DNA of 64,000 bases, from NCBI GenBank assembly GCA_015501595.1, contig JADNRX010000082.1, positions 62,001-126,000 on the forward strand. The letters are read 5' to 3'. Position 1 is the first letter of the stretch. Every line of letters starts with the position of its first letter. Both the position numbers and the translations under genes were made by a program. The notes beneath the pieces were generated by a model. It was not told the origin of the DNA and ran no database searches. It worked only from the letters and a program-made list of their open reading frames with translations. The stretch comes from Hymenopellis radicata. Its lineage: Eukaryota; Basidiomycota; Agaricomycetes; Agaricales; Physalacriaceae. Shown in pieces: positions 10-24,341 of this stretch.

Positions 10-250
10 ATAGATTCGTGACTCAGCTCAGACTGGCAGCTCAATTCGGAAACCACGTGGTAACTCGTGATTCAACTCGCGATCTCAATTCAACTCGCGA
101 TCTCGATTCAACTCGCAATCTCGATTCTCAATTCAACTCGCGATACCAACTCAACTCGCTATACCAATTCAACCCGCCGGCCGCCATAGCAATTTAACTC
201 AAGATACCCATTCAACTCGCAATTCAAGTCGGGAAACCCAACACCAACAC
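10..250. repeat. Left terminus and subterminal CAACTCG array
   Basis: After the terminal TCGTGACT (16-23), a loose tandem series of TCAACTCG(C)-type units spaced about 10-25 bp apart runs from about 60 to 225. The orientation is inverted with respect to the right-end array at 24210-24325. Such subterminal motif clusters are commonly transposase binding sites; that role is inferred here. The candidate target duplication is ATAGAT at 10-15. Confidence 0.65.
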
Positions 251-379
251 ATAGGTCAGATAGGTTCTTATTGGTAATATAATTCATTGGAGAGTCTTTG
301 ATACATAACAACTTTGGAGCTCGAATAAGTAAAAACAGGTGCCATCAATCAGTCGAGCCTCTTCAAGACAGTAAGCAAG

Positions 380-830
380 TCAAGAAACAACAACGGAGAA
401 GGAGAAGGATACACACTCGATTTGAACAGCCGCCTCAGCCGCCTCCCACATCCTCTCAATGCGCATGTTGTGCGTAGACCTGAATAACATCAGACATAGC
501 TTGGCGCAGTAGAGAAAAGGCATACATTCCCCAACGATATCCCGGCAGAATTGCGCTACCAGGACCTTGTACTGCACTGGGTGGCGGGTTAGGTGCACCT
601 GCCAGCACTTCAGGTGGCGGGATAGGCGCGGCACTGAGCGCTTCAGGTAGCGGAGTAGTTGCTGTAGCTGGAACTCCTTTTACGGAAGCTAGCTCTTCCC
701 TTTTTGCAGAGACAAGCGATAACGCAGCAATAGTGGTCGACATTGGGTCGTCAATGGTGGTGGTTGGGGTAAGAAAAAAATCTTGACAGGTGACAGTTAG
801 TGGAAGCGAACCACAGCAGGATTCGAACAT
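380..830 (-). pseudogene. Decayed fragment with a DDE-integrase motif
   Basis: On the minus strand, a short stretch around 455-495 reads RSTHNMRIERMW. This matches RSVHNIRIERLW, the segment that carries the catalytic glutamate of the integrase encoded at 22352-24136. The match stops abruptly after the Trp. The overlapping frame (456-830) encodes a Pro/Ala-rich stretch with a PPPEVLAGAPNPPP-type repeat and no recognisable domain. I read this as a relic of a second integrase copy next to the left end. It is too short to be functional. Confidence 0.45.
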
Positions 831-1028
831 TTGTAGGTAGCAAAAAATCAGGGTCTTTGAACACTTGAGTCCACAAGTAGTATCGAAGCCGCTGGGCTAC
901 GTACATACATTGAGAATGCTCACCTCCCTCTCAATATTCAAAATCACAGTGTCTTGATGCCAAACCCACTGGCTACAGTTTGTGAAGAAGTTCTCTGCAC
1001 ATCAGGCTTATAAGAAGAGGTTTACCGT

Positions 1029-1550
1029 TTACAGAGCGGAGGAAGGGTCCCACCCAGCTGCACCCCAAACACATGAGACCCGTCGGCTCGATGAACACAA
1101 CTTGGTATTCATGCGTGTAGTCCAGCAGATGTTCCTCGTCAGCTTTGATTGAAAAGTGAAATCACATCGTGCCGGTCTCCATGTCGAGGTTGAAGGACGA
1201 CGGCGCGATAAGCTCTGTGCGCCGGAAACCATACTGCGGCCCGCCGCTTCTGGCACGAATACGGAGGACCAGTCGATGGTGATTGCGACGGCCTGCTCTT
1301 GAGGCAAGCGATGGGTAGGATTGTACAGGGCAGTAGGCGCGGATGATGAACCGAGGAAAAAGGTGTAGGCTTGGGTCCTCAAATCCCTTCACGGCACTAT
1401 GAGGCGTTTGAACACGAATTTCAGAAATTAGAGAGAATACACACGTATTGAATGGCTCCGATGACGCATCAAGGACGGTACTGTTCATGCTGAGAGGAAC
1501 GCGTCCATCATAGATGATCGACGCCGCAACGCTTAACACCAAAGTTGCTG
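1029..1550 (-). pseudogene. Broken copy of an unrecognised gene
   Basis: Protein-like sequence runs through this stretch on the minus strand but changes frame. One frame contains PTHRLPQEQAVAITIDW and FVPEAAGRS. The continuation in another frame contains FRRTELIAPSSFNLDMETG, followed by an in-frame TGA, and then HEYQVVFIEPTGLMCLGC. An intron-like segment lies near 1385-1440. I do not recognise the family. The frame switches and the stop argue for a pseudogene. It abuts the glutathione synthetase fragment directly, as expected for patchwork captured DNA. Confidence 0.4.
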
Positions 1551-1559
1551 GAAAGAGAA

Positions 1560-1925
1560 CACGGAGGCTCCTTCTCTCTGCGCCTTGAGCACTAGCGCGT
1601 GGTGTTTCTGCAATGCTTTCTGGATACCATCATCCTCATCCAGTCCCCACATCTCCATCAAGCTAGCACGTAATTCCTCTGCTCCGGTGGTGTCGACGAA
1701 CCGCTCGAGAACCCCTGGTTGGGCGAGCACCTGCTGCACCTTCTTGCCCCCAGCGAGCTGAAGAGGGATGGACGGGCACTTGATAGCCTTTGAACGCATA
1801 AGAAGGAAATGCATGTCATAGTTAGATTTTGCCAGATAATCAGTGGGCGTGTAACCGGCGCGATAGTAGATTTCTGTATGCTTGACAGTTAATACAGATG
1901 TTTGTGGGTTCACAGGTGACAGAGG
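1560..1925 (-). pseudogene. Glutathione synthetase fragment
   Basis: The minus-strand translation contains IYYRAGYTPTDY, RSKAIKCPSIPLQLAGGKK and VQQVLAQPGVLERF, then DEDDGIQKALQKHHALVLKAQREG. These are hallmark segments of eukaryotic glutathione synthetase (ATP-dependent joining of gamma-Glu-Cys and Gly; ATP-grasp fold). The similarity breaks off just after QREG, at the start of the Gly-rich ATP-binding loop, and the following residues are unrelated. Only about 110 of the usual roughly 500 residues are present. It lies inside the large transposon and looks like a captured host-gene piece. The protein match is strong, the partial status is clear, and no function is expected. Confidence 0.8.
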
Positions 1926-1974
1926 CCGACTGTGCGAGTTGATCAAAAGTTTGTCTTATGACTTTGATAGAGTA

Positions 1975-2862
1975 TCTAGGAGATTGCTTAGAACAGGGAG
2001 AGGCGGGTAGTCAAAGACAAAATCAACACCAGTAACACCACACTGTATATAGACGTTCTGCGGCGTGTTCGACTGTCCGCCGTCAGAGAGATCGCGCTGT
2101 ATTGATGGGGTATTGATCTTCCAAGTCATTAAATTCCACGAAATCCGACTTTCAAGAGGGGGCAACTCACTCTCTTTCCATCAAGAGTGCGGAACTGCGT
2201 CGACACGACTTTGAGGAAATACTGGAGCATATATTGGGCCTTGTTCATCCGCCCAACCGCACCGTCGCCTACATCACGATCAATCATAATTTCGAGAGCG
2301 AAGGGAACAGCAAAAACTCGTACCTTCAAACGAAAACTTGTGAATCGCTTGCGAGAAATCGTGGCGGTTCCCGTCATCGTGGAGGTACGGCACGAGCTCG
2401 TCTGGAACGAGCGACCCGCTGCCGGGCATAGGTGAATGTTACCGATGACCTTGTCCAGCCGCGGTTGACATACGCCGTGCGGACCTCCTCGCATGTATTG
2501 CAGCACTCGCTCTCGGCCTCCAGCCCCTCCGTAGCACGAGCCGCAATACCCGTCCTCCTTGGCCAAGTTCATCTTATCTAGGTCATTCTGCAGGTCCACG
2601 CTATATGACCCCGGCACTGCCTTGCCCATCGTGTCCAGCCGCGCCTTGAGAATATCATGCGTCAAGTACCGCTGCGTCTCCCGCTGACGTTCATCACGTC
2701 CAAGCTCAGCACCGCACAATAGCACGGTACCCGCGGAAATGTGACGTTCATATGGACAGTGAGCTTCTCGCCGCGACTCTTGTCGACGACGATGGAGGTG
2801 TAGACCCGGCGATAGTCGATTAATTCTATAGTCGAGAACACAACACTGTCGACTGGCATCAA
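1975..2862 (-). pseudogene. ERV46/ERGIC3 fragment with frameshifts
   Basis: In 5'-3' order on the minus strand the segments are: YRRVYTSIVVDKSRGEK; FPRVPCY; SLDVMNVSG; then in another frame LTHDILKARLD, DYCGSCYGG-like DGYCGSCYGG; in another frame ESECCNTCEEVRTAYVNRGW; DKVIGNIHLCP; FLKVVSTQFRTLDGK; and DLSDGGQSNTPQNVYIQ. These match the luminal part of Erv46, a COPII cargo receptor cycling between ER and Golgi. I see at least one 1-bp loss (near 2690) and one 1-bp gain (a GGGG run near 2530). Two segments behave as ordinary introns (about 2290-2345 and 2110-2165), so the source was genomic DNA rather than cDNA. The N-terminal membrane segment and the C-terminus are missing. Confidence 0.8.
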
Positions 2863-4048
2863 GCATTGCCCTCGCAGTTACAAGCAAAAGGCGGCTCACA
2901 GAATGCGTGGCCTTTTTCCTCCGCTTCGTATCTAACAATCTTGTCTCGAGAGGACTTGTGTGAGAGTATTGGGAAGGGGCTGACACTTGTCGATAACTGA
3001 TGGATGGTGGGAGTGCAGACTCTGTAGACAGATGTTGTTTCCAAAGGCAGAGGGGACCGCTTGGCGTCAAAGTGTTTCGAAAGGGACCAGGTACGCCCTC
3101 CGAAGATCAAAAGATCTTCATTCTCTGTTCCCGTGGACCTCTCAGGAGAATGGGAACATGGATCGTGCTCGTGTTGCGCAGCAGAGAGAGCGATATGAGC
3201 CTTTTCGTTCAATTTCACAAGAATGGGCTTTCAGAAATATTGTTCAGTGTACCGTTTAAGATATAAAGTCAATAAACTCACCAGGGCTTTTTTCGCGTCA
3301 GACATTAGGCTCTTGTAGGGTCATCGTCTTCGTCTTCTTCGACACATGTGATGACTCTGCTCATCAGCCAAGCACATTAGAGTCAGCCAGACATTCACCG
3401 CAGGCAGAATCATCTAGGTCGCATGTGTATGGGTCCAGCGAGCTGTCCAGGGGAGGACCTGAATAAGGATGAGTATGAGTATGAGTATGAGTTGGGGCTG
3501 ACCACTTCTGCCGCCTATTTAGCAACAGTCATGGCTCCGCGCTCACGCATCCCGGCCACGCGCTCGCGGTCGTCGAGGTAATGTCACAATTGGGTGGACA
3601 GGCAGATTGAAACCCTACACTGCCGACTAGTGATTTGGCACGGCCACTTGTCATTGAGACCGGTGAGTCACTGCGAGTTGAGACTGGGGAGTCTTTGCAA
3701 GTCGAGGGGTCGTAGAGGAAGAGCGATTCCTGCTAATCTCCTTATCAACACTGTATGTAGAATGACGAACTGCGAATATTACCTCTGGACCATGATTCGC
3801 GTGGGTGATCCTGGCGGAGAATCAAGATCCGTGTGACTGGAGGCGCGTTGAAGAGAAAGGTCACATCATGTTGTCCTATGTGGGTAGAGGCAACACAACA
3901 GAATGCAGGGCTTGTAGATTACAGACAGAGTATGTATAGAATGCTAAAATGATATGACACAGCGTATTGTATGAAGCAGATTCAGAGTATTGTATGAAGC
4001 AAGCAGCGTATCGTATGGAGTCGTATATTGTATGAAGCAGGTAGCGTA
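2863..4048. other. No convincing gene; short simple repeats
   Basis: Only short open frames without recognisable domains are seen. A GAGTAT trinucleotide-pair run lies near 3465-3492. A loose four-fold repeat of GTATTGTATGAAGCAG-like units occupies about 3960-4050, just downstream of the HECT-like gene. A stretch near 2860-3220 may be another eroded coding piece, but I could not identify it. Confidence 0.5.
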
Positions 4049-7000
4049 TTAAACGATTTCGAATGTGAAGTCTGATACTTTAAAGTATACGTCAAATTGA
4101 GCAAAGTTCTGTTCCTCATCCTGAGGAATTCGACTAAAACTGGTAATGAAGTCTTGGTTGAGTGTTACTTCAATTTCTCTGGAACAAATGTGGAAGACGA
4201 GCTGAAGACTGATTAGTTTCTACGTATGAAAAATATTAAAATGACATACGCCGTTCTCTGCAGCCCTAATGTTCGCTCGCTCGACATCCGGCATATCGTC
4301 GGGAAGCTCCTTGGGGAGTACGAATACTACCTATAGTAGTAGAACTCGTTCAGTATGAAATAACATTAGTGAAATCAGCGCATTACCTCAAAAAAGTTTC
4401 CTAGTGCCGGTAAGCGAGCCTCTGCAGAGCAGGTTCTGATGAACGAAGTCGTGTTTTTCAGACTATGTCGAAGCCATCGACATAATTGTTGCATAAACTG
4501 GCATTGGGCCAGTTCTGCCGCGGGCCCGGAGTTTCGTATGCGTGACGATCTTCGTAGAACAGATATCAGTGATTCTGGAGAGGATATATTTGCAAGAGTA
4601 TAGAGTGATCGTAGAATTTCTGGGGCGCGCTCGCGAAAGATCTGCAAGACAGTCAGTTACTAGAGAAACACAGTCTAAAAAAACAATGCACGTACGGTGC
4701 AAACATTATGCTCATCAGTTTCCTGTCCGATAAGGCGGTTGAAGCCTTCTTGTATGGCATTGATAATCGATGTATAATCAGCAGAAAGATGGGCTTGTGC
4801 ATTTCCCCAGGCGAGATGCGCTATCAGCGCATTCGTTGTATCCGCGACCTCTTCCCGAGTCATATTACGTAGATCATCCAACTGAATAAATCTGTCAGTG
4901 CCAAGTTTTAAGCAAACTAGAATTGCATACCTCGATGGAAAGCACGTCGATAATTAGCATTACAATTGGATCACGTGCCGTCAGTGTCATCATGCTGTTT
5001 GGAGGCCAATTGACAAGTGGGTCAAGCAGTTTTGGATGTAGAATGTCGATAAGGTCGGTGGAGAGTGTTTCAGCAAGGGGGATTCGGCGTATCAGTAAGC
5101 AGATGAGACTGGGAGAGATGGGAGCCAAATTGTGTCCCCACAACAAACAAAGCTTGAGAAAAAGACCAAAGGCCTCATAATAATGCAACGCGCTAGTTGA
5201 CGGTCGAAGAGTGGGAATTGTTGGTACGATGCATCCAGGACCGACACAAGTAAAGCGAGGGGATTGCGTAAACATTTCCATAACAGTAGAAATAACTGCG
5301 CGTTCGACACCTTCACCAATGGCAGGAGAACTGATGGACTGTTAGCGCCAAGTCAAGTTTGGATCAACGGAGCTCATACATATCAAACGCGCGATACTGA
5401 TAACCTAACGTTATCCACGTAAGTCGCCGTACTTGAACGTCTTGCTCTTGGACCGGTGATGGATCGCGACCTTGGAGTAGATCTAACAGAGATCGAAAGA
5501 ATGTATGCGCACTGGACTGTGCCGAAGATGCTATGATAGAGAAACTTGATTCGTAGGTCTGTTCATCGACGAGAAGGTCGTTGCATTGTGTTTGAAAGTC
5601 GTACAAATCAAGCGAGGTGATGTTATCAAATGTCGCATTGGCAGCCGAGGGCGCATCCTCAGTAGCCAAGACGGCACGATATGGGCCGATGGACATGTCC
5701 TCAATGTCATGCATTAGCAGATCTGCTTCGACCTGGTCTACGTCATTCAACGGTGCAGGAGGTGGTATTGGAGATGATGGAGAAGGAGATCTGCTAAGAC
5801 GTCTTGGTCGTCGTTGAGGAGATGGAGATCGACTGGGACGTCTTGGTCGTCGTCGAGAAGATGAAGATCGACTGGGACGTCTTGGTCGTCGTTGAGGAGA
5901 TACCTGAGGTGACAGTGTAGGGGGAATGTCGGATGATGTGCCGTTGTCAGGTGTAGACGTTGTCTAAAAGATGGTATAAACAACTTGAACATGACCATAG
6001 TGCGAAAGACTTACATCGGTGCAATTATACACTTCACACCATGAATCAGTATCGTCATTCATATCCTTAGATGCGGTATATAGACTGGAATTCAGTCCAT
6101 TCCACAAACGCTCGTATAAACAAGCGTGAGTTCCAGAAGGCGACAAAACACCATTTGGTGCATATGGTCCGATTACAATATCATATCGAGGGGCTAGAAA
6201 GCTGTATTAGCCTTTAGCGATATCGTAGAGATGAGAGATATACCCAAAATGAGAAGCAATTCCCGTTTGTCCTTGTCATCCTTGTTCTGTTCTACATTCG
6301 AGTACTTCCCGCAAGAATGAATAGCCTGCCCCACCGTTAGAGTCTCCGTATCGTCATACTTGCCAAGCTTCGCAGGCAAATTGGAGCCTGCCCGAGCAAT
6401 CTGCTTGCAGACTAGGGCATCCCACAATAGAGGTCGTGCCTGTAAAGCGGCTGCTGAGATGTGTGAGGTTTGCGGGGCGACGAACATCATCCCCGAGGTC
6501 TGCATAGCTGCGACCAGGGCATTATTCAAACGAGTTGCAATCAGCTGGTCTGGATTACTGTGCGGACCAGGAGCCCACATGAAGGAGAGCCCTAGACGCT
6601 TCGCTCGTACGCAAAACTCCGCCTGTTGCGGCCCGCGACCTGGGGCGCGGAAGGTAGTCCCACAAGATTCGTGTGAGACAGGGAATGGTGATAGGACAAC
6701 GCAAAAGATAACGGTTGCCGGAGTAAGTGGGGGTGCACGTGAACCTGTCGCTTGAGATAGTGCTCGAGCCCGTGATCGAGTAGAAGATGCTGAATATGTA
6801 AGCATGGGAGGATTGAGAAGCCGTGCGCTAGATGAGCCAGCAGAAGCGGCCTGTTGAGAGATTGGTAGGGTGGAAGATATGGGCTGGGCGATCCCTAAAG
6901 GTGAATAGCGTCGTTGAAGATCCGTTCTATCTCTTCCAGCGCGACGACGCGCACTTGGCTCTTGGGAGGGAAGAAATGATGATGGGGGATTCCATTCTCT

Positions 7001-7411
7001 TATTTCACCAGTAGTGGAAGGCGCTGGTGGGGGCTGAGCGGTTGTTGGCGGGGGTCGGGGGGTTGTTGAGGCAAGCACATGACTGAGATGAACAGCTCCG
7101 CAGTTGCGGCATTGAGCGCGAGGCCCTTGATCGTTCTAAAAACCATAAGATATTATACATGATGAGAGAGAAATAATCGTACAGTTGTCGATTGGAAATG
7201 CGTTGATTGTCCTGGACATACTCGGGGAGATGGCACTTGATGAGCGGCACGCGAATGCCCGCAGGCACATAACCCTGTCGTCTATGAAGAGTTAGAAATA
7301 GTGCAGCAAAAAGATATTCCATAGACGCACTGCTGGATCCAGCCAATAGCCTGCACATCTATGAGCACATCCACCCTCGACATGACATGGGTTATTTTCA
7401 TCTGTATTCAT
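4049..7411 (-). CDS. Cys-rich protein with HECT-like E3 ubiquitin ligase domain (969 aa)
   Basis: Ten exons give one open frame: 7411-7331, 7281-7183, 7135-6244, 6193-6015, 5963-5380, 5330-4931, 4881-4696, 4641-4387, 4330-4250 and 4201-4049. The N-terminus carries a dense Cys/His cluster (PCHVEGGCAHRC, LCACGH, CRNCGAVH) that probably binds zinc. A Ser/Pro-rich middle follows, with an Arg-Ser repeat (see separate entry). The last 330 residues follow the HECT layout: IGEGVERAV, FGLFLKLCLLWGHNLAPIS, IQEGFNRLIG, then RLPALGNFF and VFHICSREIEV. The last resembles the HTCFN segment around the catalytic Cys, which makes C925 the candidate nucleophile. HECT enzymes pass ubiquitin through a thioester; whether this one is active is inference. 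No stop or frameshift was found, which suggests recent selection. It is the first of four same-strand element genes. The HECT assignment rests on motif order only. Confidence 0.72.
5775..5905 (-). repeat. In-frame Arg-Ser repeat inside the HECT-like gene
   Basis: About three tandem copies of a 42-45 bp unit encode SP(Q/S)RRRPRRPSRS-like peptide inside exon 5 of the HECT-like gene. The length is a multiple of three, so the frame is kept. The encoded stretch is strongly basic and resembles RS-type or nucleic-acid-binding tails; that function is inferred from composition only. Confidence 0.8.
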
Positions 7412-7679: not shown

Positions 7680-9970
7680 TCAAGTCTTCTCAGCTTCAAA
7701 CTTGAAGATACCAGTTGCGGCGTCTTCATGGCAGATCTGGACATTGGAGTACCCAGTCGCTGTGAGACGCTTCCGCCACTCCTTCTCGTCAATAGTACAG
7801 TGCATGTGATCATCGGTATAATTTGAGCTATGCACGGTGCCGTCGGTATCAACTACGAGGATGTGCCCACCAGGCGCGAGCTTATCCACGTTCAAGCCAG
7901 GGATTATATCGTAGTGGCCGGCTCTTGTTCGCTCGCCTCATACATCTTCCCAACCATATTCTTGTAGGTGAAGGATTGCGCCAAGCTGCTGGCTAGCGAG
8001 TAAGAGAGATCTGGTCGCACAAGGCCTCGATGAGGAACTTCGTCAATCCACCGACACCTAGAGATACACAGTCAGCCGGTTTATTGAAACTAAAGAAACG
8101 AGATGCACACCTGCACCGACTTCCAATACCCTGATAGGACGCTGCGTCCCAAAGTCAGGAGACGAGACAAGCGACTTACATAAAGGTCTTCGCAGCCTCT
8201 TGGTTCATGCTGGTGAAAACCCTGTTCTCCCGATAGAAGCCGTCAATCATGTCGTCGGAGTACAACACTCCAACAGCGGCCTAATGTACGAGAAAAGCTT
8301 AGCAAAAGTTAGACATAAGAACTTTTACATACCGCTGGGAATTCCACGGAGGTGTGCACCTTTGCAATACGATCCGTCGTCTCGAACTATAGCGGGAAGA
8401 GCGTCTTGGAGCGTTCGTATTCTTCGTCTGTCTATATGCTTTGTGACTGTGTTCGGACGAAGTCTTCTATTGTGTCATACAACCGCTTGCGACTGATCTG
8501 TTGGTGAGTTAATATTTTTTTCAGGCCTGATGATGAGGCTCAGCACATACCTCCGATCCCACGCGAGGATGTTGACTGACGGTGTCCGCCATGACCAGGG
8601 GCCATGAAGGACCAGGCGTTTGGATACCGTCCCGTTAGATACTCGATACCAGTGTTTGCACTGGTTACAGCGATCAGCATATGAGGACAAAGCCAGAAAT
8701 GTAGAGAAAGCTTACCTAGCATAGTTCGTTTGACCGGCGGTGCCGAAACCAGCCACAGACGAGACTGCGAGTAAGAAGTCAAGTTTCTCGATGGCGACGG
8801 CCTTCTCCAGGGTGAAATACGCATCAGTCTTCGGCTTGAAAGGGATGGGGAAGCTTTCGGTATCTTGCTTCAAGAACAACCGGTCGGACAAGACGGCTGC
8901 TGTGAGCATGCAGCCGGCGAGGGGACGATCCAGCGAGCTGATCAACTTGGTAAGAGATTTCACTGATGAGGCGTCGCACGCCTCTAGCCAAAGGTCAAGA
9001 TCAGGACGGCTCTTAAGGTAGTCGACGGCACCACGCATGGCTCTGTTCTGGGCTCCGACAAGCTGACTAACACCTTTTCGGGTGGTAAGAGTGATATGTC
9101 GTGCACCTTTCTATTATCATACGACTCTCATTAGCATCAGCAACCTCAAGGAAACATGTTACTTACTCGGTACATCCAAATGGCGACTTGGAGTCCCAAA
9201 GAGCCCATTCCACCCAGAATAAGATAGAACTTGTCGTCTGCCAAAGTGAGAGTCTGCGAGACATCGAAACTTGATGGGAGCAATTGCTCAGGTGTGAGCG
9301 GGTTGTCGTTCCCGTTGACCTTCTGAACGGCACTGGTTAAGTGTGCATTGATTGTTGTCCCAACTAACCAGGGGTTTTAGGTCACGGCGGTGAGAGCGCC
9401 TTGGTCTGTATCCTCCCAGTTGAAGACAGAGACTCTGTCGATGCGGAGAATAGTACGAGCAGTGGTGGCGGATAGTCCGCACATGATAACATCCCCAGGG
9501 GACAGACGAGGAAGGATCAGGGGAAGCGAAGGAGAAACCAAAACTGGTTTGACGCCCAGATGCTCTAGGACACGCACTACAGAGGAAGCAAACTTGCTGG
9601 TGTTAAGGACAACGACTTGGATATCCTGTAAGCTTTTCAGTGGCCTGGAGTCCAGTCGAAGGCCAAGAGCCGCGAAAACCAACAGCAATGCAACATTAGC
9701 AGATGCTCGCTCGTCAGTGTTCTCGGGGATTTCAGCGATCTGGCCCTCGTGGACGAGGACGAAGTTGGACAGGGCAGACGGCGCGACGGAAACCACACAA
9801 GCTCCGACTTTGAACTGCGATGACCCACTGCGTGCGACTGTCCCAACGACGCCCCGGAGCCCGCCCTCCGCATCGGAAAGAGACGAGATCTTGATGAGTA
9901 CCTGATGAGGGCGGGGCAAGGGAAGCGCTGACTGAACGACAGTCTTCGCCTTGTCCACCATCCAGTACTT
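7680..9970 (-). pseudogene. Polyketide synthase fragment (ER-like, KR, methyltransferase regions)
   Basis: In transcription order: an enoylreductase-like stretch at 9961-9400 (GLRGVVGTVARSGSSQFKVG, VVVLNTSKFASSVVRVLEHLG); a ketoreductase with Rossmann start FYLILGGMGSLGLQ near 9240-9170, then PLAGCMLTAAVLSDRLF, LDFLLAVSSVAGFG and GQTNYAR at 9040-8712, then NTGIEYLTGRYPNAWSF; and finally a methyltransferase-like RPIRVLEVGAGVGGLTKF near 8130-8040 with its tail at 7895-7680. In-frame stops occur (near 9380 and within 8200-8520), and no ketosynthase or acyltransferase is present. It is therefore a partial, dead PKS. Intron-like gaps remain between the parts. It sits between two intact transposon genes, consistent with captured or inserted host DNA. 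The KR call is firm; the ER and methyltransferase calls are less so. Confidence 0.7.
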
Positions 9971-10543: not shown

Positions 10544-13500
10544 CTATGTACGTTCTCGTACCTCTAAATGCCAAGTCTGAAGCTGTAAACGATCTACATG
10601 AAGAGGTAAAGGGTAATGCTCTCCTCGCCAATCATGCCCTGCCGCAATATCTGCGAGCATTTTATCGACTTGTTCCCTAAGATTAGCATGGGTCAATAGA
10701 TTACTCCAACGAATAACCTTGCAGAGCAAATGCTCGACGAATATAGCACCAAATCCGAGAGTTTCCTTGTCACCCGCAGAAAGATAGTGATCAAGGTAGT
10801 CATACACGCATTTAAATGCACGAATAACGTCGCGCTCACCTATGAAATTCAATGAGAAGAGATCATTCGAGTGGATTACATACGTACCAGCATTTCGAAC
10901 ATCGAATCCAAGGTTAACCAACCCGTTCAAGGCTCCCTTGCCGTTTTTCCAAGTCAAGCTACCCATTGTCTCGACGGAAGGAAGTCGACAAAGACCAACA
11001 AGAGCCATAAAGTTGGCAAGTTGCATAGACGTGATGCTCTTGCTGCCGAATCCCTGAATCCCGATGCCCTCGATCATTTTTTGAGTAGTCTCGTAGGAAG
11101 GAAGATCCTGAATAGACACATCGGAAAGGTCCTTGTCGAATACGGCTTCTCCAAGGTGAGTTTTCCAGGTTTTCAAAAGTGATGCAGCGAACATGGGTTC
11201 GAATCGTTCCCGAAAACATCGTGGCGTCTTTGTAGTATCCGTTCTCTTTTTAACATCATCAAGAGAAAGCTGCCAGCAGGGCTGCCCCCAACACTGCCCA
11301 TTCGAAAACTTGATCTTTTCCTTCTTGGGACAGCCTTGATTACTCTGGCGGGCATGCTCGAAAACCTCAAGACACTCGGTGTACGACGTGAACCAACGAT
11401 GGAGATGGCTGGTCATAAACTCTTCAGTCTTTAGGCCTTGACCGGTGCCAAAGCGAACAAGCATATTGGAAAGCCCATATTCGGATGTAAGCCGATAGTC
11501 TGAGGATTGAAGACTAGCGAGCATAAGCTGTTGGCCGCGATTGGCATGTCGAATGGGAGTGAAGTGATCGGGATCAAGGAATGGTTGGAGTTTATGAGTG
11601 CGAAGACTTCGACACTCAAGAATATCATGAAGACATCTGGAATGAGTAGCTTCCTGGCGATTGAATGCAAGAACCTCTCGTAGCATAAGCGAGACAAAGG
11701 CCATTCGAGGAGCGTGTTGCATCGGACAAAGATCATATAGAGGTGTATTGTCCGGTACTGGGACACCGCCACAGGTATCATCCTGCATACGGCGAATTCG
11801 GCGTCGACGTGCACGTCTTGTGGATGCGACCATTGTGTTGGATAGTTGTAAAATACAATCACGCACAAGATGTGCTAGCTGTCGTGCATCCTCCTGAATT
11901 ACAGGAAGATGGCTATGACTTTGAAGCCATTCGCGAAGACCATCTGTAAAGGTATTTGGCGCCTCGATGATCTTCTTTCGCAGTTGTCGAGGTCGCACAT
12001 CTCCAAAGAGAGTCCACGGCGATCTCAAAGCCGCTTGAACTGGTGGACAACAGAGAATAGAATCATCGTCAAAGGCGTCAATGAGTGCGTCCACAACTGC
12101 ACCCCGGACAACCCATTCATCAACGGAATCCAGACAACGGGACTTGGTGGGAGCGATAATGAGATGATCCGTAACAAATGTGAAGAGGCATGAATGAGCC
12201 GCCTTGTCAAAGAGTGCAGCGTTATGAAGTTGAGAGGAATCAAATGAGATCGTGATCGATGAAAGAGCAGTTACGGAGTGAGGAAATAATGGTTTTAGCG
12301 AGTCTGGCGATAGCGAAACACTTTTATAGGATGTGTCCACTCTAGCAAAGGCGATTTTAGACTGCGTACCACGCTCTCTGCGCAAAGCTGTAAGGCCGTT
12401 GAGAATCTCGCTGACCGCCTTGGCAAAATCGGGGTATTTTGACTCTAGCGAGCCTTCCCCATATGCAAGAAGAAGAGCACGTATGAATTTCCCACCATAA
12501 TCAACATACCAGTTGAAGATGAATAGATAGGCGCGACACATAGAGAGATTCATAGCAAAGGTATTGGCCTCGCTCTCCAGCAAAGCAAGTTCACTGTGCT
12601 GAGCAACACCAAGAGCAGTATGAAGATGAGGAATAAGAGCAAAGGCTAGCTCTTGGGAAAAGTCGGCGACACTATCCAAGGTAAATGTCTCCATGGTGGC
12701 TGCTACACGCTGAAGAGAAGCTCCAGATTCCACAAGCGAAGACGAGCTAGGAGGTAGCCCTTTACGTTCTCGTAGGTTTGTCTGTAAGCGTTCCATATTG
12801 ATAATCTCGAACTGAAGCGCGTCGGGAACGAAAAGCTGAGAAAGTGCTTCAAAGCTTTGACTTGTGCTGGGCAAAGGCGGGGAAAGTGTCCGCTTGTAAT
12901 AGTCTTCGATCAGCTCATTCGCACTACAAAAATATTAGACGTCAATCTATAAAGCAATGAACATTGTATACTTCATGTTTTGCGCTGAAACCCATTTATC
13001 GGCTGATTTTCCAAAGCCTTTCCATCGAACTTGGTAATCGGTTACATTTCCCTGGGCCTCTCGTTAGCAAATGAAGACATATCAGAAGAATTAGACGTAC
13101 TGAAATCCGATGAGCAACAATAAAGGACAATTCGTGCTCTGCAATATTCTGCTCGTCTTCCTCATCGTAACTTGGGGCTTCGTCGTCGTCGTGCTCATCT
13201 TCAGAGTCGGAATCCTTCTCCGGAACCTCAGATTCACCGTCATCATCAAACACTGGATATGGTGCTGGACTCGTGTTCGCTGAACTCGCATTCACGTTGA
13301 GAGCTGGTGATAAAGTCGTAGCGTGAGGAGATAGAAGATTAAGAGGAGTGGAGTTTGTATGTTTAGCTTTCTTTAAAGGCGCCGGTAGTGTGACAGGAGA
13401 ATCCTTTCGCTTGAGTTCACGTAGTCGGCGAGCCGGAAAGGATGCCTGAGCAGTTTGATCTACCACAGCAGCGTTGGCAGTCAATGCAGTCGGCGGAGGA

Positions 13501-13694
13501 AGTCCAGCTCTAAACACAGTCTGGGGAACGGCATCCTCAGTCAAGCTAGCTTGATAATCTGCGTGGCCGAGCTCTTGACCAAAGCGATACTGATACTTGG
13601 TCATGTGCAATAGATACCGCCGTGACAATATTTCGTGCTGCTTCCATAGACCGCGCATCAGAGCAAAGTACTCTGCATGCTGAACTGGGTTCAT
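10544..13694 (-). CDS. Chromodomain protein of the large transposon (1019 aa)
   Basis: Three exons (13694-13101, 13057-12972, 12923-10544) join in phase into 1020 codons including the stop. Residues about 185-235 form a chromodomain: ELSFIVAHRIS, NVTDYQVRWKGFG, DKWVSAQNM, NELIEDYY. It is preceded by a Ser/Pro stretch and a long acidic run (DSDSEDEHDDDEAPSYDEED). The 790-residue C-terminal part is one exon without a domain I recognise; it contains Cys/His pairs such as CPMQHAP and GQCWGQPCW. Chromodomains bind methylated histone tails, and in some chromoviral integrases they steer insertion, so a targeting role is a reasonable inference. The start is the ATG at 13694, which overlaps the stop of the upstream gene. 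The frame also stays open upstream to about 13870 without an ATG. The gene is intact, which is notable among the decayed neighbours. Confidence 0.8.
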
Positions 13695-15391
13695 TGGAAT
13701 AGCGACGGAGGGTTGAGACACAGAAGGTGAAGGAGGAATGAATATGGAAAGAGGGGATTGACGGTGATGAAATCCGAATCTGAGTTTGTAGACAATGGGT
13801 AAAAATTTGGAATGAGGGAACTTGTAACCGGTAGGGCGCCATCTAGCCCAAGCAAGAGATCTTCATTCCAACTCCGCATGAAGCGATCTGTAAGACATCT
13901 TATGTTGCAAGACGTCTTATCGCCCAGTGCGGGAACTCCTTCGCTGGAGAAGAAGTGATAGTTGTTGCCGACATGGATAGCTATACCATCTGAGGGATAT
14001 GTCGCCATATTGACGCGGCGATGGCAGATTGCCTCGTTGGGATAGCAGACATATACAATGCGGTTGACAGTCTGCAACCACTCAGCCAAATCCTGAAGGA
14101 AGGCACGACGAGCTTCGGCATCTGCACTAGGAGCAACGCCCGAGTGGAGATCGTTTCCTTTGAAAAACAAGACAAGACGGACTTGTCCATTAGGTGAAAC
14201 CTCAACCCGTGCGTATAGTCCGAATCGACCAAGAAGAAATGCACCGGGATCACTACCTATTTCAAGAGGTCAATGTTTGAGCGAAGAGAACATAATGAAT
14301 ATGTACCAGGTGGTAACATAACTTGAATGACAAGCATTGTCCAACGACATGGATCATCGTTGATATCCACATGCCAGCGGCCTTGTATGATCCCCAACAA
14401 CAACCCTAAATCTCCGCCTGCCCACCCCGAAGAGAAATTCCACTGAGAGCTTGTCAGCCCAGTCGGCGACATGCCACCGAACGAGTAGGCGTTAACGTCA
14501 AGCGATCGGAACGTCGTGACATCGAACTCGAGTTTGGACAGTGCCAGAGGTGCCAGCACACAAGCAAGTTCAGACAATGTCTGTAGAACCTGCAGACGAC
14601 GGGCTTTGGCATCCTCGTCGTCAACCTGGGTCGCAGGAATGCCGATTCCTTCCCCGTTTCCTTCCAGCTTTGTCGATGCATGACTGGATGAGCCATCATA
14701 GGGATGATCAGGCGGTGGGTCCGCCGAGCGCATGTTACGCTTGACATCAAAAAGATACACCGGTCTCCGAGTCCCATCCAATCCCCACGACATATCCCAG
14801 AGCTTGTCGCTGAGCTCCTTGATCTTTGGGTACTCAGGAAAGCGTTGAATGCTGGAGTCAAGAATATCAAACAAGGCGGCCACAGTGACGGACATGGATG
14901 GATTGCCATCAATATCGAGACAGACAGGTATTGTAGGATACAATCGGGTCATGCCCTCGATGGGGTTCATGATATATCTGCTGTTTGTCGTATCATAGCA
15001 GAGAGGTGACGTGCCCGGAGGGGATTGTATCCGACAAAGGTGCTCTATTTCAGCATCCCGATTTACAGGAGGGTAATATGACGCGGCGTATACCTCGCGT
15101 GCTCGGTAGCGATTGTCCGCGCGCAAGTTGAAGGTGAGTCCCTTGGGATATGTAAACCCTACGGGTGGAGGTGAAAGGGAAGGTGCGGGCTCGAGTTTGG
15201 ACGGAGCCTCTGGATTGCGTTCCGTCGGCGTCAGACTTGGCGCGTAGTTGATCCGAGCGTCCGTGCGCTCAACCATCGGGATCGACTTGATGTAGGTGGT
15301 GCGGAGACTCCATTGACGCGCATCAGAGGTTGCTAAAAATATATAAATCAAGGATCCCTGTGTTGGGAAGTATTGACGCACTGCCAGCCAT
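13691..15391 (-). CDS. Unrecognised transposon-borne protein (533 aa)
   Basis: Exons 15391-15382, 15332-14307 and 14256-13691 give 534 codons with two 49-50 nt introns. The first exon is only 10 nt (ATGGCTGGCA). Features visible in the protein are a Pro-rich segment (about residues 30-60), YDTTNSRYIMNPIEGMTRLYP, VCLDIDGNPSMSVTVAALFDI, and later IVYVCYPNEAICHRR and GIAIHVGNNYHFFSSEG. I know no family for these. The gene lies head-to-tail upstream of the chromodomain gene, and its TGA shares bases with that gene's ATG. It is intact and travels with the integrase and HECT-like genes, so it is probably a core element component. The last 40 residues overlap a possible 49-nt intron (about 13846-13798), so the true C-terminus is uncertain. 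Confidence 0.72.
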
Positions 15392-15507: not shown

Positions 15508-15599
15508 GGTTGTGGCTGTGTCTTACCTGGAGCTCAAAGTTTTTAAATGTGTCGTTTAAGCGTTTGATGGCACGAAAATAAAGAAAGAATAGGTGGCAA

Positions 15600-17290: not shown

Positions 17291-17501
17291 TTTGACCGGC
17301 TGATGGGCTACATATTACTTACTGTACAGCGAATCCTAAATTGTTCGTAGATCAATCTCAAAGCCGCTGCGAGAAGCTAAGGAGAAGGCAGAGGCCAAGC
17401 TAAAGAGAGAAGAGGAAGGTGAGTAATCTTGTTGTCATTATTGACGTTGACTGACCTCTTGCAGAAACGCAGCTCCACTTCAACCTAGCTAATCCATCAC
17501 G

Positions 17502-17880
17502 ATGTCTGCTCGCAACTGGCCCCGCATGAAAACTTCTCCTCTCAGACGCGCATTCTTTCCCACTCTTTCGTGGCCAAACACAGCTACCGCTACCGAAATC
17601 GGTATCATAGATGAAATAGCAGGCATGAAACTTGCGACCCGCCTTGGAGTGCGAGTCCCGAAGCTACATCGCGTCGTTCCTGCCGACAGCGACCAGGGAT
17701 CGTATCTAATTCTGACACGTATTCATGAGCGCGTCGTCGTCGACATCTGGATGTCTCTCACCTAGTGGCGCACCATTTGCCTCGCGTTGCAGCTTTCGCG
17801 TTTTGTGAAGCTCATACGTAGCGTCAAGAGATGTGTCTTGCAGCAAGACGAGACGGCAACGCGGGTGTTTTAGAGCCAGG
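17502..17880 (+). pseudogene. APH-like kinase fragment
   Basis: The ATG at 17502 opens a frame containing IIDEIAGMKLATRLGVRVPKLHRVV and GSYLILTRI. This is the N-lobe pattern of fungal phosphotransferase (aminoglycoside/choline kinase-like) proteins, which are abundant in basidiomycetes. After a stop at 17763 the reading continues in another frame with WRTICLALQLSRFVKLIRSV, again typical of the same family. No catalytic HGD-type loop is visible downstream. It is a partial, disrupted gene, another apparent cargo fragment of the large transposon. Confidence 0.6.
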
Positions 17881-20060
17881 CACTCACGCGTCGAAACGAC
17901 TCGAAAGGTACCATGTCCGCCGCCGACATCTATCCGCTACTTTTCCTGGTAACCGCTACCACCTGCGTCCGACACACCATCAACGCGCGAGCCATTTCCA
18001 TAGGCCCGGACACACCAAGCCTCGACCGGGTCACCGCCAGTCGAACAGGAACAGAAAAAAGTCGAAGAAGGCAGGAAAAGAGGTGCCGTTGTCCTCGGGT
18101 CATTTGGTTTCAATTTCCTGACTGTCTACATAGAATAGGATGGTGAGAATCTTTATCCTACGCAGCATCACGCTTTTACACTCACTTCCATGTCCAGCGA
18201 ACAGCGATCTCACACGCAGCGTATCGGTGTCGGGTGCGGTGTGTCGTCAGAAATCTCGGTCCAAAACGCCCTTCAACACGTACGGGCAGGTAGACTCGGT
18301 TGTCGCCTCGATTGGTAAACGAGAATTACAAACAAGCGTACGCACTACTCGTTCTTCTGGCGTCTACGAGCAGGACGAGGACGTGCCGGAGGGCAGGACA
18401 ATGGGCCAATTCATCATTCTCCCCACCGCTCTTGATGGTCAACGGTGGTATTAACGCACAGCTGGTTACTCAGAGAAGACTCTCGAGACTCAGTCGTACG
18501 CTGATATGCCTTTCGGCATGTCTTGCCTCTGACCCCGCCTTCACCCCCGCTATCTAGTCCAGGGAGAGATTGGATGTTTCCAAGATCCCCCGTCTGTATC
18601 TCCTCAGCCATCCTCCCACTTGATACCTCGGTTCTCATTGGCGGCTCAAACCCCAACGACCACCTACTACCCGACCACATATGCTCTCGAGATATTCTAC
18701 CCTCCCTATTTCTCTGCTTCTGTTCGTCCCACATTCACTGTGCACCGGCGGTGCCTAGTTCGACCTTACCATCTCGTACTCCTTTACCACCGCCACCTCC
18801 CTACCAGCCATGTCCGCTGCAACCGTAAATCCATCCATGTCGGCCGTCTCGTTTAACCCTCTCGCTCGGCCATCTGCCCAGCAAGAAAGACATCAAAAGT
18901 GCTGGAACTGGAACCTGTGCGATGCTGCTTATGGTGCCCTCGTTCTCGACATCAAGGAGGGTCGAGCGCAGAACTAAGGAGTCAAGGTAAGAATTTCGAA
19001 TTCCGAATTACTCATTTTCTTACAATAAACAGGCTTCAACCCTCCTCCCGCCAACAAGGCAGCACCCGCACCAGAGCCAGAAGCGACGACACCCAATGAC
19101 GGACAAGAACAAAAAGGACAAAACCTCGTCGCCCGCCCTTGGTTCCCCTCTGGCATTCGGCTCGTCGCGATTGTGGAACTCAAGGCATCAATTCGCCATA
19201 TCAATCGATGCTTTGCGACTCATTGAATGCCCGTACAAGCCGACGTGCCTGCATTGTTGAATTGTGAATCCCGAACATCGGCCGACGCGACCCAGGCGGG
19301 ACATTCTTCGCGGCGTCGGGATTTTGGCACCCTACTCAGACATCTGCACTGTCAATAGAAGGTTTACATGCTGAACATGCCATGTACACAGTATTAACGC
19401 CGTCGACGCGTTCCTCGTTCCAAGGTGAGATTATTCATTTCGACCACTTTGCAAGTTATCTGACACTACTCTCTAGTCCAACGTTGCTCATTGAATCACC
19501 ACTCTAGGACGTGATGTTGGACTACTCGCTGGTACTCACGCCGCCGTTATGTTCGAATGGCGGATACTGCGCCCACCAGACGTTGCCCATGTCTGGGCGG
19601 CATGATGTTCGGGATGTTGGCGGGAAGTTCAATCCTTACTTGAACTCTTCAATACTCTGAAGGGGTCTATCTATGACGGTTTTTTTCGTCAACTATGGGC
19701 TTCGTCGTCGGCCCCTCCACACGATGGTAAGTAATTCCTTGTTTTTATTCTATTTGACACTTGAACTGACTTCCCACTGTAGACGTGCCTCAGGCTTCCA
19801 CTCGTAGCGCTGCACGTCGCGATATGAACGTGTCCTTGACTGTGAGACGGCTTGTGGACGCGGAGTAGGACGAGTGTAGAGTCGACTATGCTCGAACTCT
19901 TGCTCAGGTCGCACACCGGGATGACTGTTGTCGAGGCTCGGGAATCTCAACGCTCTCGTTGAACAGAGGTACGTTGATGATGTCGTTGTTCTCATTTCAC
20001 CGGGCTCATTGTTTAACGAGGTTTTGTTCATATCTCGTATAGAAACACCTTGTTGAAGAA
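17881..20060. other. Decayed region with coding-like scraps, no gene
   Basis: Short open stretches on both strands change frame often. Intron-like GT...AG segments recur (for example around 18990-19035 and 19420-19480), suggesting eroded genes. A phrase near 18900-18975 (NWNLCDAAYGALVLDIKEG) looks protein-like, but I cannot place it. Nothing can be supported as a functional feature. Confidence 0.4.
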
Positions 20061-20064
20061 GGAC

Positions 20065-20119
20065 AGAAGGGAGCAGCGGCCTTTGCCGCTGTGCTCGCGG
20101 ATGCTCGCGTCTCCCTTCT
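20065..20119. repeat. 55-nt cloverleaf-like palindrome, copy 1
   Basis: The outer arms AGAAGGGAG and CTCCCTTCT pair (9 bp). They enclose a perfect inner hairpin (AGCGGC/GCCGCT with a CTTT loop) and a weaker CGCG/CGCG hairpin. This three-way shape recurs almost unchanged at 20351-20405. Confidence 0.8.
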
Positions 20120-20350
20120 GATATCGATAGGTACGTTCATTAATGTTGATTTGTCGTGAGCCCGGGACTAACATCGACATCGACAGGACAGGACCTCGTT
20201 GTATAATTCAATACTTCTAAACAACACGGCTCCTTTGAAGAGTTTCTTGTTTCTCGACTTGTTCTCGACCTTGTCTTCACTCATCTCGAATTCGACACGG
20301 GTCTAGTAGGACCATACGTCGAATAACAACGTCTTGCTGTGTGATGCGGG

Positions 20351-20405
20351 AGAAGGGAGTAGCGGCCTTCGCCGCTGTGCTCGCGGATGCTCGCGTCTCC
20401 CTTCT
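20351..20405. repeat. 55-nt cloverleaf-like palindrome, copy 2
   Basis: Same length and layout as the copy at 20065-20119, with two substitutions; one of them (T to C in the loop) makes the loop CTTC. The outer 9-bp stem is unchanged. The copies are 286 bp apart in direct orientation. Confidence 0.8.
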
Positions 20406-20719
20406 CGTATGTCTCCGGTGTGTTCATTAACATTGTTTCTTCTTGATGTTGACTAAAGTCAAGTCTTGTAGGACTTGTCTTGAAGAAATATTTTCTCAAT
20501 GTGACTGGTCTGCTGTGCATCGTGCCGTCACGACTCTGGTTCTCCGCGCTGTACGACAAAGGTTTGTGAGATGTCCCTTTGCCCGGTGAGTGACTTCTGA
20601 CTGTTCGTGTATCCGAACATAAAGCCTAATCGCGCCGTTTAGATAAATTCTGCGAACTAGACACGCTGAACGTCAGACTATCGCCGACAACTTTGCGGCT
20701 TCAATAAGGACATCGATGG

Positions 20720-21365
20720 TCCACTCGAGTACTGTCGTGACCTCTGGCTTGTCCGCGGATATCATAGAGGAATTAAACATGGTACGTGTCTTCGTCTTGT
20801 TCTCATGTTCACTGACTAACTCAACTTGTCGATTAGTTCTTCTCATCATCCGGCTATCTATTCGCCTGTCGTGACCTCTGGCTTGTCCGCGTCGGATGTC
20901 ATAGACTAAGAAGTAATTAACCATGGTACGTGTGTTCATCGTCTTGTTTTCATGTTCCGTCACTAACTGAACTCATCGAGTAGCTATTCTCATCATCGGG
21001 ATATCTGTTCGCGAAGGAGCGAGTGCAGCCGACTCGGTGCAAGGCATACGCCGGTTGGTCAATGGGAGTCGAGACACTTATCGTGTCTCGATACGGCGAA
21101 GGTGTGTTCCTTTCGTCTCTCGTGAGCATTGCTCATGCTGACCGTACTCTTCAGAAAACGAGTCGTTCTTTTGCACGGTACAGTTGCGTATTTGACGTCC
21201 TGCGGTTCCAGTGGGGCGAGTTCATAGATGAACTACGGTGCTCATGAGCGCGGAGATGCCCTCAGAAAACGACTACTCTCACCGCCGTACATACTACGTA
21301 GATTACAGTTGTGTATTTGACGACCTGCCGTTACAATGCGACAATCGTGCAGATGAACGCGACTG
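20720..21365. repeat. Two pairs of intron-bearing tandem repeats
   Basis: A unit of about 140-150 bp starting GTCGTGACCTCTGGCTTGTC occurs at about 20727-20865 and again at about 20869-21015. Each copy contains a GTACGTGT...TAG segment that looks like an intron. A second pair, with TGTATTTGACG(A/T)CCTGC and AGATGAAC motifs, lies at about 21180-21235 and 21310-21360. They probably derive from tandemly duplicated exons of a gene now lost. Confidence 0.6.
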
Positions 21366-21562
21366 GTCGTACGCGAGCGCGAAGTCATCGTCGTGGCACC
21401 ATTGAACCTGTTACCATGCAGTTTATGATTGACACCTCGGGTCTCAACTCGTATGCCCACACTTTCCTGTTGCCTTCTGGTTTGATGTTCCTTCAAGCCA
21501 ACCTTTCAAGCAGCAAGTCCGATTGATATCCCATCTCCATCATCTGCTGATATTTCGGTACA

Positions 21563-21745
21563 GCCCTCTGGGATCCTGCTACCAACGCCGAGACCCGCCT
21601 TCCCGACATGCCTAAAGGCGTAGCTCGCGTTTACCCCGCATCAGGTGGTGTCGCCATGCTCCCCTTTACCCCCGAGAACAACTACACTCCCACCATCCTC
21701 TTCTGTGGTGGTACCGACATGCCCGACTACGCTTGGGGCAACTAA
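21563..21745 (+). pseudogene. Glyoxal oxidase (copper radical oxidase) fragment
   Basis: The frame reads ALWDPATNAETRLPDMP, GVARVYPASGGVAMLPF and TPTILFCGGTDMPDYAWGN, followed by a stop. This is a highly characteristic central segment of fungal glyoxal oxidases, extracellular copper radical enzymes that make H2O2 for lignin-degrading peroxidases. Only about 60 residues of roughly 550 remain. A stop replaces the tyrosine that usually follows WGN. It lies inside the large transposon. Confidence 0.8.
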
Positions 21746-21865
21746 TCGTGGTCCTTTAGTATATACGGCGGAGATGTTGCAGTTTAGTCTGAGGTGTTTT
21801 CGGTTTGAGGAGGCGCATGCGCTTTACAGGGTGTTGGCTCCCAGACGCGACAGCGTACAGCATCT

Positions 21866-22360
21866 ATGTCTATTCCACGTGAGTCACCCATTTCGCCCAC
21901 GAGCGCGTCGTGGGGTGCCCCGCCTCCCGTACCGCTGCATGTATCGGACGAGCAGAGCGCGACGCGTCCTCCTCTGTTCGAGCACCCAACGTTGGAGCTG
22001 CCCGCAGAGCCAGAGTTAAACCTCGCCGACTTCATCAACATTGACGATGACCCCATGGTTGATGTCAAGTCAGGCGAGGATGGCGGTGCGGTTCGCAGTT
22101 CCCCGGTGCCGAGCTCCAATCTCCTGCCAATCCCTCCGCATCCCCCCACGTCGGTGTCTCCTCGCCTACCATCGCCATATCCCCCTTCGCCCCCCGTCCT
22201 TCCCTGGCCGATAACTCGAGATCCTTCTGCTTTGACCTGTACACATCTGCCTCGACTCGATGCTCATATTACACGCAGCGCGTGAGGTCGTGGACTATAC
22301 GGAAATCTTCAAAGTCTTTGAGAAGGATACTGGTTCTACCTACTACTATTATTACGACTG
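21866..22360 (+). pseudogene. Unrecognised Pro-rich coding remnant
   Basis: A 139-codon open frame starts with ATG at 21866. It contains LELPAEPELNLADFINIDDDPMVDVKSG in pieces and then a Ser/Pro-rich tail, and stops at 22285. Beyond it, in another frame, VVDYTEIFKVFEKDTGS and a poly-Tyr end run up to the integrase stop. It may be the end of an eroded gene, possibly part of an element-specific gene. No family recognised. Confidence 0.3.
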
Positions 22361-24136
22361 AAGAATGCTATTTGCTTTAATCAGAGCTTCCGTCCATAGC
22401 TGAGCTCGAGCCGACATTGTCTGAGTTGTACGAAAGGGTAAAGTAGAAAGGTAATCTTCGAGTTCGTCAAGTTCATCCTGCGTAAAAGGACAGCCTGGAA
22501 TGGCAACGGGAATATGAGAAAAGGTGGATGGGTGATTTTCCAGGAATGGGTTTGCATTATCATCGGGATCGTCCACGTTTTCCGCCTGATGATGTGAGCG
22601 GATTTGATTATTGTCCAAATCATCCCAATCGACTCCATAAGAATGAACCTCTTCCTCGTCGAACTCCGGATCATCATTGAGAAGTAGTGCAGGAAAGCCT
22701 TCAGAGTCATCGTCTCCGAGAAAAATCCCCCGCTTTCCGCAGTGCATCATGCCATGATTGTATTTGAACATAGGTGATCGATGTGGTTCGTAGTGGTGAG
22801 AAATGACATGGTTGTTCCATGCCTTCATCCATGAATGAGCATCTTGATTGATGTCTTCCAGAAATAGGTAGTGGAGGAGCCACAGATGAGCGTCAAGATC
22901 TGGATGTAGACCGAATGAGGTTTCGAGGTAGCGTAGAAACTCTTTCCAGTGTCGCCCAAACCCTTGAGTAACGTTCACCCACAGCCGTTCGATACGAATA
23001 TTGTGAACGGAGCGTCCAAAAATATATGAACCGCGTCCAGGGCCTCGGACTTCCTCCATCCTCCTGGCAACATAAAAGTTTTCTGTTCCATGGTCCCCGC
23101 GAACGCGACTGGGATATCCAAAGACTGCAGCGATATCCTCGAATAGGTCTAGTACCGTTTGAGAGCGGTTGTTATTGCTAATCCGAATGCCCGTGACCAA
23201 TCGCGAATATCCATCCACAAAGGCATGGATGATCAATTTCCACCGTATCAATCCTAACAGAAATAATAAGCACATATTCAAACAAACAACCTGTAACATA
23301 CCGTGTTGACCGTCATGATGCCATAATGAATTGGGTCCTGGAACAGAATACACACGGCGGTAGAGACGACGAGGAGCAAAGGTGTTGGGCGAAACACCAA
23401 TAACACGCTCATACGATTCGATAACACGTTGTCGAGGGACACGATGGCCGAGAGCAATAAGATACCCATCTATCAAGCGCCGACCAAATGAGGGAAACTG
23501 GTTGTAGCACGCTCGGATGACAGTGTCAAGCTCATCATTCGAAAGTTGAGCAAGGTCACTGGAACGACCTGCACGATATATCCGTACAAAGCTGCCATCA
23601 TCAAGTTCCTCATCTGTATAAACCGGAGGACCAGGAGTGGACATTCCGTATGCCAGGAGATTTCGGCGAATGGTGCGCGCAGAAACACCAAAACATGCAG
23701 CTACATCGAGACGGGTGGAGCGCCCTTGAGAGAGGGTGGCAAGTTGAGCAGGATCAATATGAATGCGAGGTCTTCCTCGACGTCCCGTTGGCAACGATTG
23801 TATGGGAGTGGAGGGAGTGTCGGGCTCATCGGATGAAGTGAGGATGGCACGATCAAGATACTCGATCATCCGTGAAATATTGGTGGAGAAAAAATCAAAT
23901 ATATTCCGAGAGATGGAACCTTGGGACTGAAACAATTGAGACTATTACAATCCCAATAATGCATGCACTTACGAATGCATTTTGAGCATGCTCTCGAACA
24001 ATTTCGCACCGTCGCCGCTGCTCCCCAACCTTGCCGCATCACCCAATTGTGTATACAAAGCACGTGTAGTATCATCTCCCAGAGCCTGGAAAGATTGCTG
24101 TAGGTTGTGCTGAATGAGATTTACTTGGTCGGTCAT
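22352..24136 (-). CDS. DDE integrase/transposase of the large transposon
   Basis: The main frame runs from about 23935 to 22352. A 48-nt in-frame intron (23301-23254) removes the odd hydrophobic insertion and restores HDGQHGLIRWKLIIHAFVDGYSRL. The N-terminal third has an AT-hook-like GRRGRPR and a helix-turn-helix (LDVAACFGVSARTIRRNLL). The catalytic core shows D (WHHDGQH), D (VRGDHGTEN) and E (NIRIERLW) in the spacing of rve-type integrase cores of eukaryotic transposons. A 5' exon (24136-23973) encoding MTDQVNLIQHN and KLFESMLKMHS looks real, but its donor phase does not match the acceptor at 23926. The extreme N-terminus is therefore unresolved and may hold a small lesion. The gene lies next to the right terminus, as expected for a mobilising enzyme. 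The Asp-rich C-terminus (DDSEGF, DDPEFDEEE) is of unknown role. Confidence 0.82.
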
Positions 24137-24204
24137 GGTGGTTAGGCGTCAGCAAAGAAAAGGCGACCGGTGGCCACAATGATTGGTCATGTGACCTGGC
24201 GGCA

Positions 24205-24341
24205 GACATTATCCGGATTCCGAGTTGACCGAGTTGAGCCGAGCGAGTCGAGTTAAGAAGCCGAGTTGAGTTGAGAAGCCGAGTTGAGTTGACCGAGCTG
24301 AGTTTGATGAGCCGAGTTGAATTCATCAGTCACGAATAGAG
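24205..24341. repeat. Right terminus and subterminal CCGAGTTG array
   Basis: On the plus strand this is a run of GAGTTGA/CCGAGTTG units, i.e. CAACTCGG read inward from the right end. It ends with AGTCACGA (24328-24335), the inverse of the left end. ATAGAG follows as the candidate target duplication. The array lies upstream of the integrase ATG at 24136, so it may also contain that gene's promoter. Confidence 0.65.

Follow-up and report, generated by a model that had tools for sequence, protein, structure and literature searches.

The window analysed here is 64,000 nucleotides of the mushroom Hymenopellis radicata (C1207:62001-126000, in a genome of 75.5 Mb and 1,405 contigs), and its left part holds a large mobile element. 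Very probably, this element is an IS3EU-like cut-and-paste DNA transposon of the mushroom, in which near-identical ends and an integrase gene form a chassis around modular cargo. The unit is 24,403 bp long and covers window positions 1 to 24385 plus the first 18 bases outside the window (C1207:61983-86385), as defined by a second copy, target duplications and uninterrupted sites. It is a sizeable real transposon of a known kind, here given corrected ends and gene models, and its cargo is modular.

The second copy (C697:24186-43761, 19,576 bp) has both ends in common with the window copy. DNA comparison gave 97.5% identity over the left 1.0 kb (positions 1 to 975) and 98% over the right 2.5 kb, which includes the integrase gene (21840 to 24385). 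The original prediction had drawn the ends at 16 and 24335, where the motifs it described are indeed present (TCGTGACT at 16, AGTCACGA at 24328-24335; TCGTGACT occurs once more at 37793). Homology between the two copies extends beyond these points and stops at -17 and 24385, which moves the left end outwards by 33 bases and the right end by 50. The TCGTGACT motif is internal, since the C697 copy has it too. The same holds for ATAGA(T/G), formerly read as the target duplication: nearly the same bases are found in the C697 copy, which lies at another site, with one base altered in the right-hand ATAGAG. Directly outside the new ends, both copies are flanked by a perfect 6-bp duplication, CCTTGA at C1207 (left C1207:61977-61982, outside the window; right 24386-24391) and CTTGAG at C697.

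The left end of the unit starts with TATG, and the right end is CCATAAAA in both copies. The outermost 24 left and 23 right bases match as inverted repeats at 17 of 24 positions, a score that none of 5000 letter shuffles equalled. The right repeat (24363 to 24385, minus strand) reads TTTTATGGTCTCCCTGGACAAAA inwards, and its left partner, TATGAAGGTCCCCAGCGGACAAAA, starts at -17. Beyond these ~24 bases, the next 36-37 positions gave 20 matches and a negative score. In the outermost 300 bases of the corrected unit, AACTC was counted 9 times at the left end (0.87 expected) and GAGTT 10 times at the right end (1.2 expected), the opposite orientation being absent from both. The inverted subterminal arrays that had been described (AACTC/CAACTCG at 60 to 225, plus strand; the same motif inverted at 24222 to 24318, minus strand) are therefore real.

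Uninterrupted sites were searched with 350 bases per flank, joined at -17/24385 with one duplication removed. The joined C1207 flanks matched C827:2123-2802 end to end, with 92% identity. The joined C697 flanks matched two C1053 loci over positions 1-698 of 700, with 79% identity; the one of these two places that was read base by base (C1053:1329-2079) carries only one hexamer, CTCGAG, in place of the CTTGAG duplication. If the element ended at 16 and 24335, another 33 + 50 bases should appear in the C827 and C1053 alignments; neither has them, so that the empty-site comparison proposed with the original prediction came out for the outer boundaries. Shorter matches of the joined C697 flanks on C456 and C1040 suggest that this flank may be repeated sequence.

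The DD34E integrase gene lies at 22352 to 24136 on the minus strand, in three exons according to the splice model (introns at about 23972-23927 and 23301-23254). Its assignment as an integrase was borne out by a match to Pfam rva_4 (PF24764, E 2.1e-53, 181 bits), with rve slightly above its cut-off, and the open reading frame (ORF) at 22355-23941 (minus strand) has a 98% identical copy on C697. When it was aligned with 14 homologues, drawn from the 120 listed of 634, all 15 sequences had D210, D283 and E318, with 34 residues between D283 and E318. Those homologues among the 120 of 634 that carry an organism name are presumably all from Agaricomycetes. Comparison of exons 2-3 between the copies gave 13 synonymous and 8 non-synonymous changes (dN 0.0068, dS 0.037, dN/dS 0.18). 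A non-synonymous share of 8 in 21 departs from the 3:1 neutral expectation (binomial P 0.0004), a pattern that fits purifying selection. In exon 1 of the window copy, a one-base difference in a G run, possibly a sequencing error, shifts the reading frame against that of C697. Beside the left end, a stretch at 446-505 (minus strand), RSTHNMRIERMW, resembles the last catalytic motif of the integrase (8 integrases matched it at E 0.001-0.13 in a 4-kb subject), and may be what is left of a second integrase gene.

In the mechanism we propose, the integrase would bind the imperfect ~24-bp terminal repeats, and probably also the inverted AACTC/GAGTT arrays, excise the unit and join it across a 6-bp stagger. 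The interiors, which hold a facultative chromodomain gene (gene 2), a second long gene (gene 3) and host-gene fragments, would be exchanged or captured. The chromodomain protein may read histone methylation, and either evade silencing of the element or steer its insertion.

Several observations weigh against this reading. Only two copies have these ends (used as genome queries, both ends matched C1207 and C697 only), and recent mobility rests on n = 2. For the relatives on C1089 and C619, no termini were detected. The C827 site is uninterrupted, yet it has AAGCCT where the joined flanks have CCTTGACAA, and is not a clean one-copy site; this mismatch exactly at the target bases (within C827:2100-2830) could be explained by a scar left at excision or by simple divergence. 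Moreover, the flank queries had been joined at ends already inferred beforehand. The C1089 contig ends ~2.6 kb past gene 2, too short to score gene 3, and cargo exchange is deduced from identity levels, without a traced donor. Finally, the right end of the element is not the CCRTA or TA of IS3EU.

The interiors of the two copies are very different. Identity between the window and C697 drops from 98% to 84%, then to patches of 73-88%, and to 64% in gene 3. This gene (4052 to 7135, minus strand, 7 exon pieces, ~815 aa) is of unknown function, and its sole other genome match, with 2 of the 7 pieces searched genome-wide, is on C697, where it is inverted relative to the ends. Over 800 codons, the two versions are 62.8% identical in amino acids and 64.3% in DNA (dN 0.28, dS about 3). 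Identity at codon positions 1, 2 and 3 is 71%, 82% and 40%, and gene 3 has therefore evolved as coding sequence. Because the chassis is 98% identical while the synonymous sites of gene 3 are saturated, interiors and ends differ in history, from which we infer an exchange or a gene conversion. About 2 kb are extra in the C697 copy (C697:26741-28728), right at the border of the segment that is 98% identical to the window.

Quite possibly, the 98% identical ends go back to gene conversion, by which two old elements recently came to share termini and integrase, and not to recent transposition of one element with later cargo change. The stepwise fall in identity speaks for such a conversion; against it, the two copies are each flanked by a perfect 6-bp duplication, a finding equally compatible with young insertions. 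With nearly identical chassis around very different interiors, the two copies offer a direct test of whether large DNA transposons exchange cargo.

Gene content also varies between relatives. The bounded C697 unit holds the integrase and the inverted gene 3, with no gene 2 match. At 2 of the 5 gene 2 loci (C1207 and C1089), the integrase is linked to gene 2, with order and strand conserved; at the other three (C644, C1295 and C463, the last a partial gene 2 match only) no relative of the window integrase was found on the contig at E <= 0.001. These five loci exclude the weak matches on C499 (24.6 bits) and C1242 (23.1 bits). Four contigs with integrase relatives (C619, and C1051, C866 and C601, which were read in smaller part, C601 being cut by its contig end) gave no gene 2 match, and gene 3 is present at two loci only, in opposite orientations. 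The expected co-occurrence of the genes thus holds for gene 2 and the integrase at C1207 and C1089, with other combinations in other relatives. We conclude that the gene set is not obligate, and that the inner genes look like exchangeable cargo.

Gene 2 (10544 to 15391, minus strand, ~1,500 aa) comprises an HxD...H region, a chromodomain and a ~790-aa unknown domain. ORFs of 377, 192, 288 and 796 aa all belong to it, so that the 'unknown' and 'chromodomain' proteins, formerly taken as the products of two genes, are parts of one. Two introns connect the chromodomain exons with the 796-aa ORF into 1,021 open codons. The gene is collinear with P0126 and P0127, each annotated as one protein in Mycena, and with loci C1089, C1295 and C644; at C1089, its first three blocks fall within one 788-aa frame. 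An annotated Hymenopellis radicata protein, P0123, matches the window's gene 2. The chromodomain itself (12890 to 13130, minus strand, splice-model introns 13100-13058 and 12971-12924) was confirmed on the spliced exons (PF00385, 38.8 bits vs a cut-off of 25.1, E 8.9e-10), and solved chromodomains match it, e.g. CDY1 at E 8.7e-6. Gene 2 of the window copy may be broken at 13.85-13.69 kb: one frame is kept there by two rare GC-AG introns only, no GT-AG intron being found, and P0123 likewise ends at this place.

Since integrase exon 1 is frame-shifted relative to C697, and no canonical GT-AG intron at 13.85-13.69 kb keeps gene 2 in one frame, the autonomy of the window copy is doubtful. Of the giant autonomous element first described, one large integrase-type DNA transposon remains. 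Its motifs, arrays, integrase, long same-strand ORFs and chromodomain were confirmed; its ends, its target duplication, the HECT-like protein and the separation of the genes were not. Gene 3 is probably the protein that had been called HECT-like. With the 7135-4052 exon pieces concatenated to 815 aa, Pfam gave no match at E <= 10, and the 796-aa ORF had none at E <= 1. PF00632 (HECT) has 12 matches in the genome, none of them on C1207, C697 or C1089. The proposal that transposition uses ubiquitin ligase activity finds no support in these searches.

In the N-terminal half of gene 2, all 6 aligned sequences, the window's included, have H324, D326, H383 and R411, in the arrangement HxD...GxDxHxG...R, and we take the HxD...H pattern to resemble that of Fe(II)/2-oxoglutarate oxygenases. 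The product of gene 2 could then be a TET/JBP-like enzyme, a 2-oxoglutarate Fe(II) oxygenase that its chromodomain would anchor on methylated histones and that would erase DNA or chromatin methylation so that the transposon escapes silencing, an idea we regard as tentative. In its favour, TET/JBP-bearing IS3EU elements are described in rusts and Tuber (PMC12730594), and the DIM-5/HP1/DIM-2 pathway silences via H3K9me3, which is read by a chromodomain (PMC13297926). Profile searches gave it no support: Pfam gave no oxygenase match at E <= 10 for the gene 2 domain and its relatives, and hhalign against the genome's sole PF20515 exon was negative. Among 18 matches of the gene 2 family profile to solved structures, 16 were chromodomain proteins and the other two had E > 1; the AlphaFold model was too poor for a judgement of the fold (pLDDT 37). 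On sequence grounds, an anti-silencing oxygenase would be a motif-based lead only. If the domain is an oxygenase, fungal elements would have a second route, besides transposon-borne TET/JBP, to fight silencing. The PF20515 (Tet-like oxygenase) match just mentioned, the sole one found in the genome, lies on C1051 (57844-58110), ~25 kb from an integrase relative on the same strand (83580-85133).

It is somewhat unlikely that gene 2 belongs to a mobile or host gene family of its own that the integrase element has simply engulfed. The 3 of 5 loci without an integrase relative on the contig are what one would expect of such a family, and the Marasmius, Gymnopus and Mycena homologues, known as proteins only, come without context. 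Against it, gene 2 follows the integrase, with order and strand conserved, in two elements whose integrases are just 30-60% identical, exon by exon. The combined proposal, in which the chassis swaps whole interiors and one facultative interior is a new-family chromodomain-tethered oxygenase that removes heterochromatin silencing marks for the element, seems to us improbable. Very improbable is an autonomous element that has four obligate genes and TCGTGACT as its boundary and relies on ubiquitin-ligase activity and chromatin targeting: the conserved gene 2/integrase order and strand at C1089, a contig too short to score gene 3, and the presence of the chromodomain agree with it, but its ends are wrong, the HECT signal is absent, the fully bounded C697 unit is without gene 2 and has gene 3 inverted, and C644 and C1295 have gene 2 without a window-type integrase on the contig.

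The remaining cargo of the window copy consists of gene fragments, all on the minus strand: a eukaryotic glutathione synthase (1536 to 1955, PF03917 2.3e-15, PF03199 2e-11), a polyketide synthase-type ketoreductase domain (8715 to 9110, PF08659 2e-19), and a weak ER-vesicle transporter-like fragment barely above the cut-off (2132 to 3106, PF07970 2.7e-5). The C697 copy contains an FGGY kinase fragment. A weak GH131 glycoside hydrolase match below the cut-off (1165-1629, minus strand, 5e-4) overlaps the glutathione synthase fragment. Just outside the element lies a DUF6699 ORF (26135-26881, plus strand, PF20415 2.8e-18), and further out an ORF (33022-34014, minus strand) whose HTH_21 and C1 matches are weak and miss the cut-off, possibly another transposase remnant.

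IS3EU elements (with GingerRoot) have an integrase-core DDE transposase, 6-bp target duplications and inverted TA..TA termini, and fungal members hold extra genes (PMC12730594, PMC10045372). The window element resembles them in its transposase, its 6-bp duplications, its 5'-TA left start, its inverted termini and its additional genes. We call it IS3EU-like, since its DD34E integrase is Pfam rva_4 and it makes the 6-bp duplication, but not a member, since the right-hand TA is absent. The rust form has inverted repeats of > 30 bp ending TAYGG..CCRTA (PMC12730594, PMC10045372), whereas here the termini are TATGAAGG and CCATAAAA, in imperfect ~24-bp repeats. Rust members carry TET/JBP and alpha-kinase genes (PMC12730594); the 24-kb window element has a chromodomain gene in their place, and no alpha-kinase was found among the window and C697 ORFs scanned. 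In common with the TET/JBP-bearing rust elements it has a transposase plus a long accessory gene with HxD...H, a likeness of motif only, and it differs from them by its chromodomain fusion and by having no detectable TET/JBP homology (PMC12730594). IS3EU together with a chromodomain was not found in the literature searched, and the available part of PMC12730594 mentions neither chromodomain nor HECT. With gene-capturing transposons such as Pack-MULEs, the element shares unrelated host-gene fragments inside its termini, although these belong to another superfamily. Like Starships and other giant fungal elements, it is large and cargo-bearing; unlike Starships, it combines a DDE integrase with inverted repeats and 6-bp duplications, in place of a tyrosine recombinase. 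Chromodomains on mobile elements are best known as integrase tails of retrotransposons; here, the element is an integrase-type DNA transposon, and the chromodomain belongs to an accessory protein distinct from the integrase (~1,500 aa), which also has a conserved metal-site-like motif.

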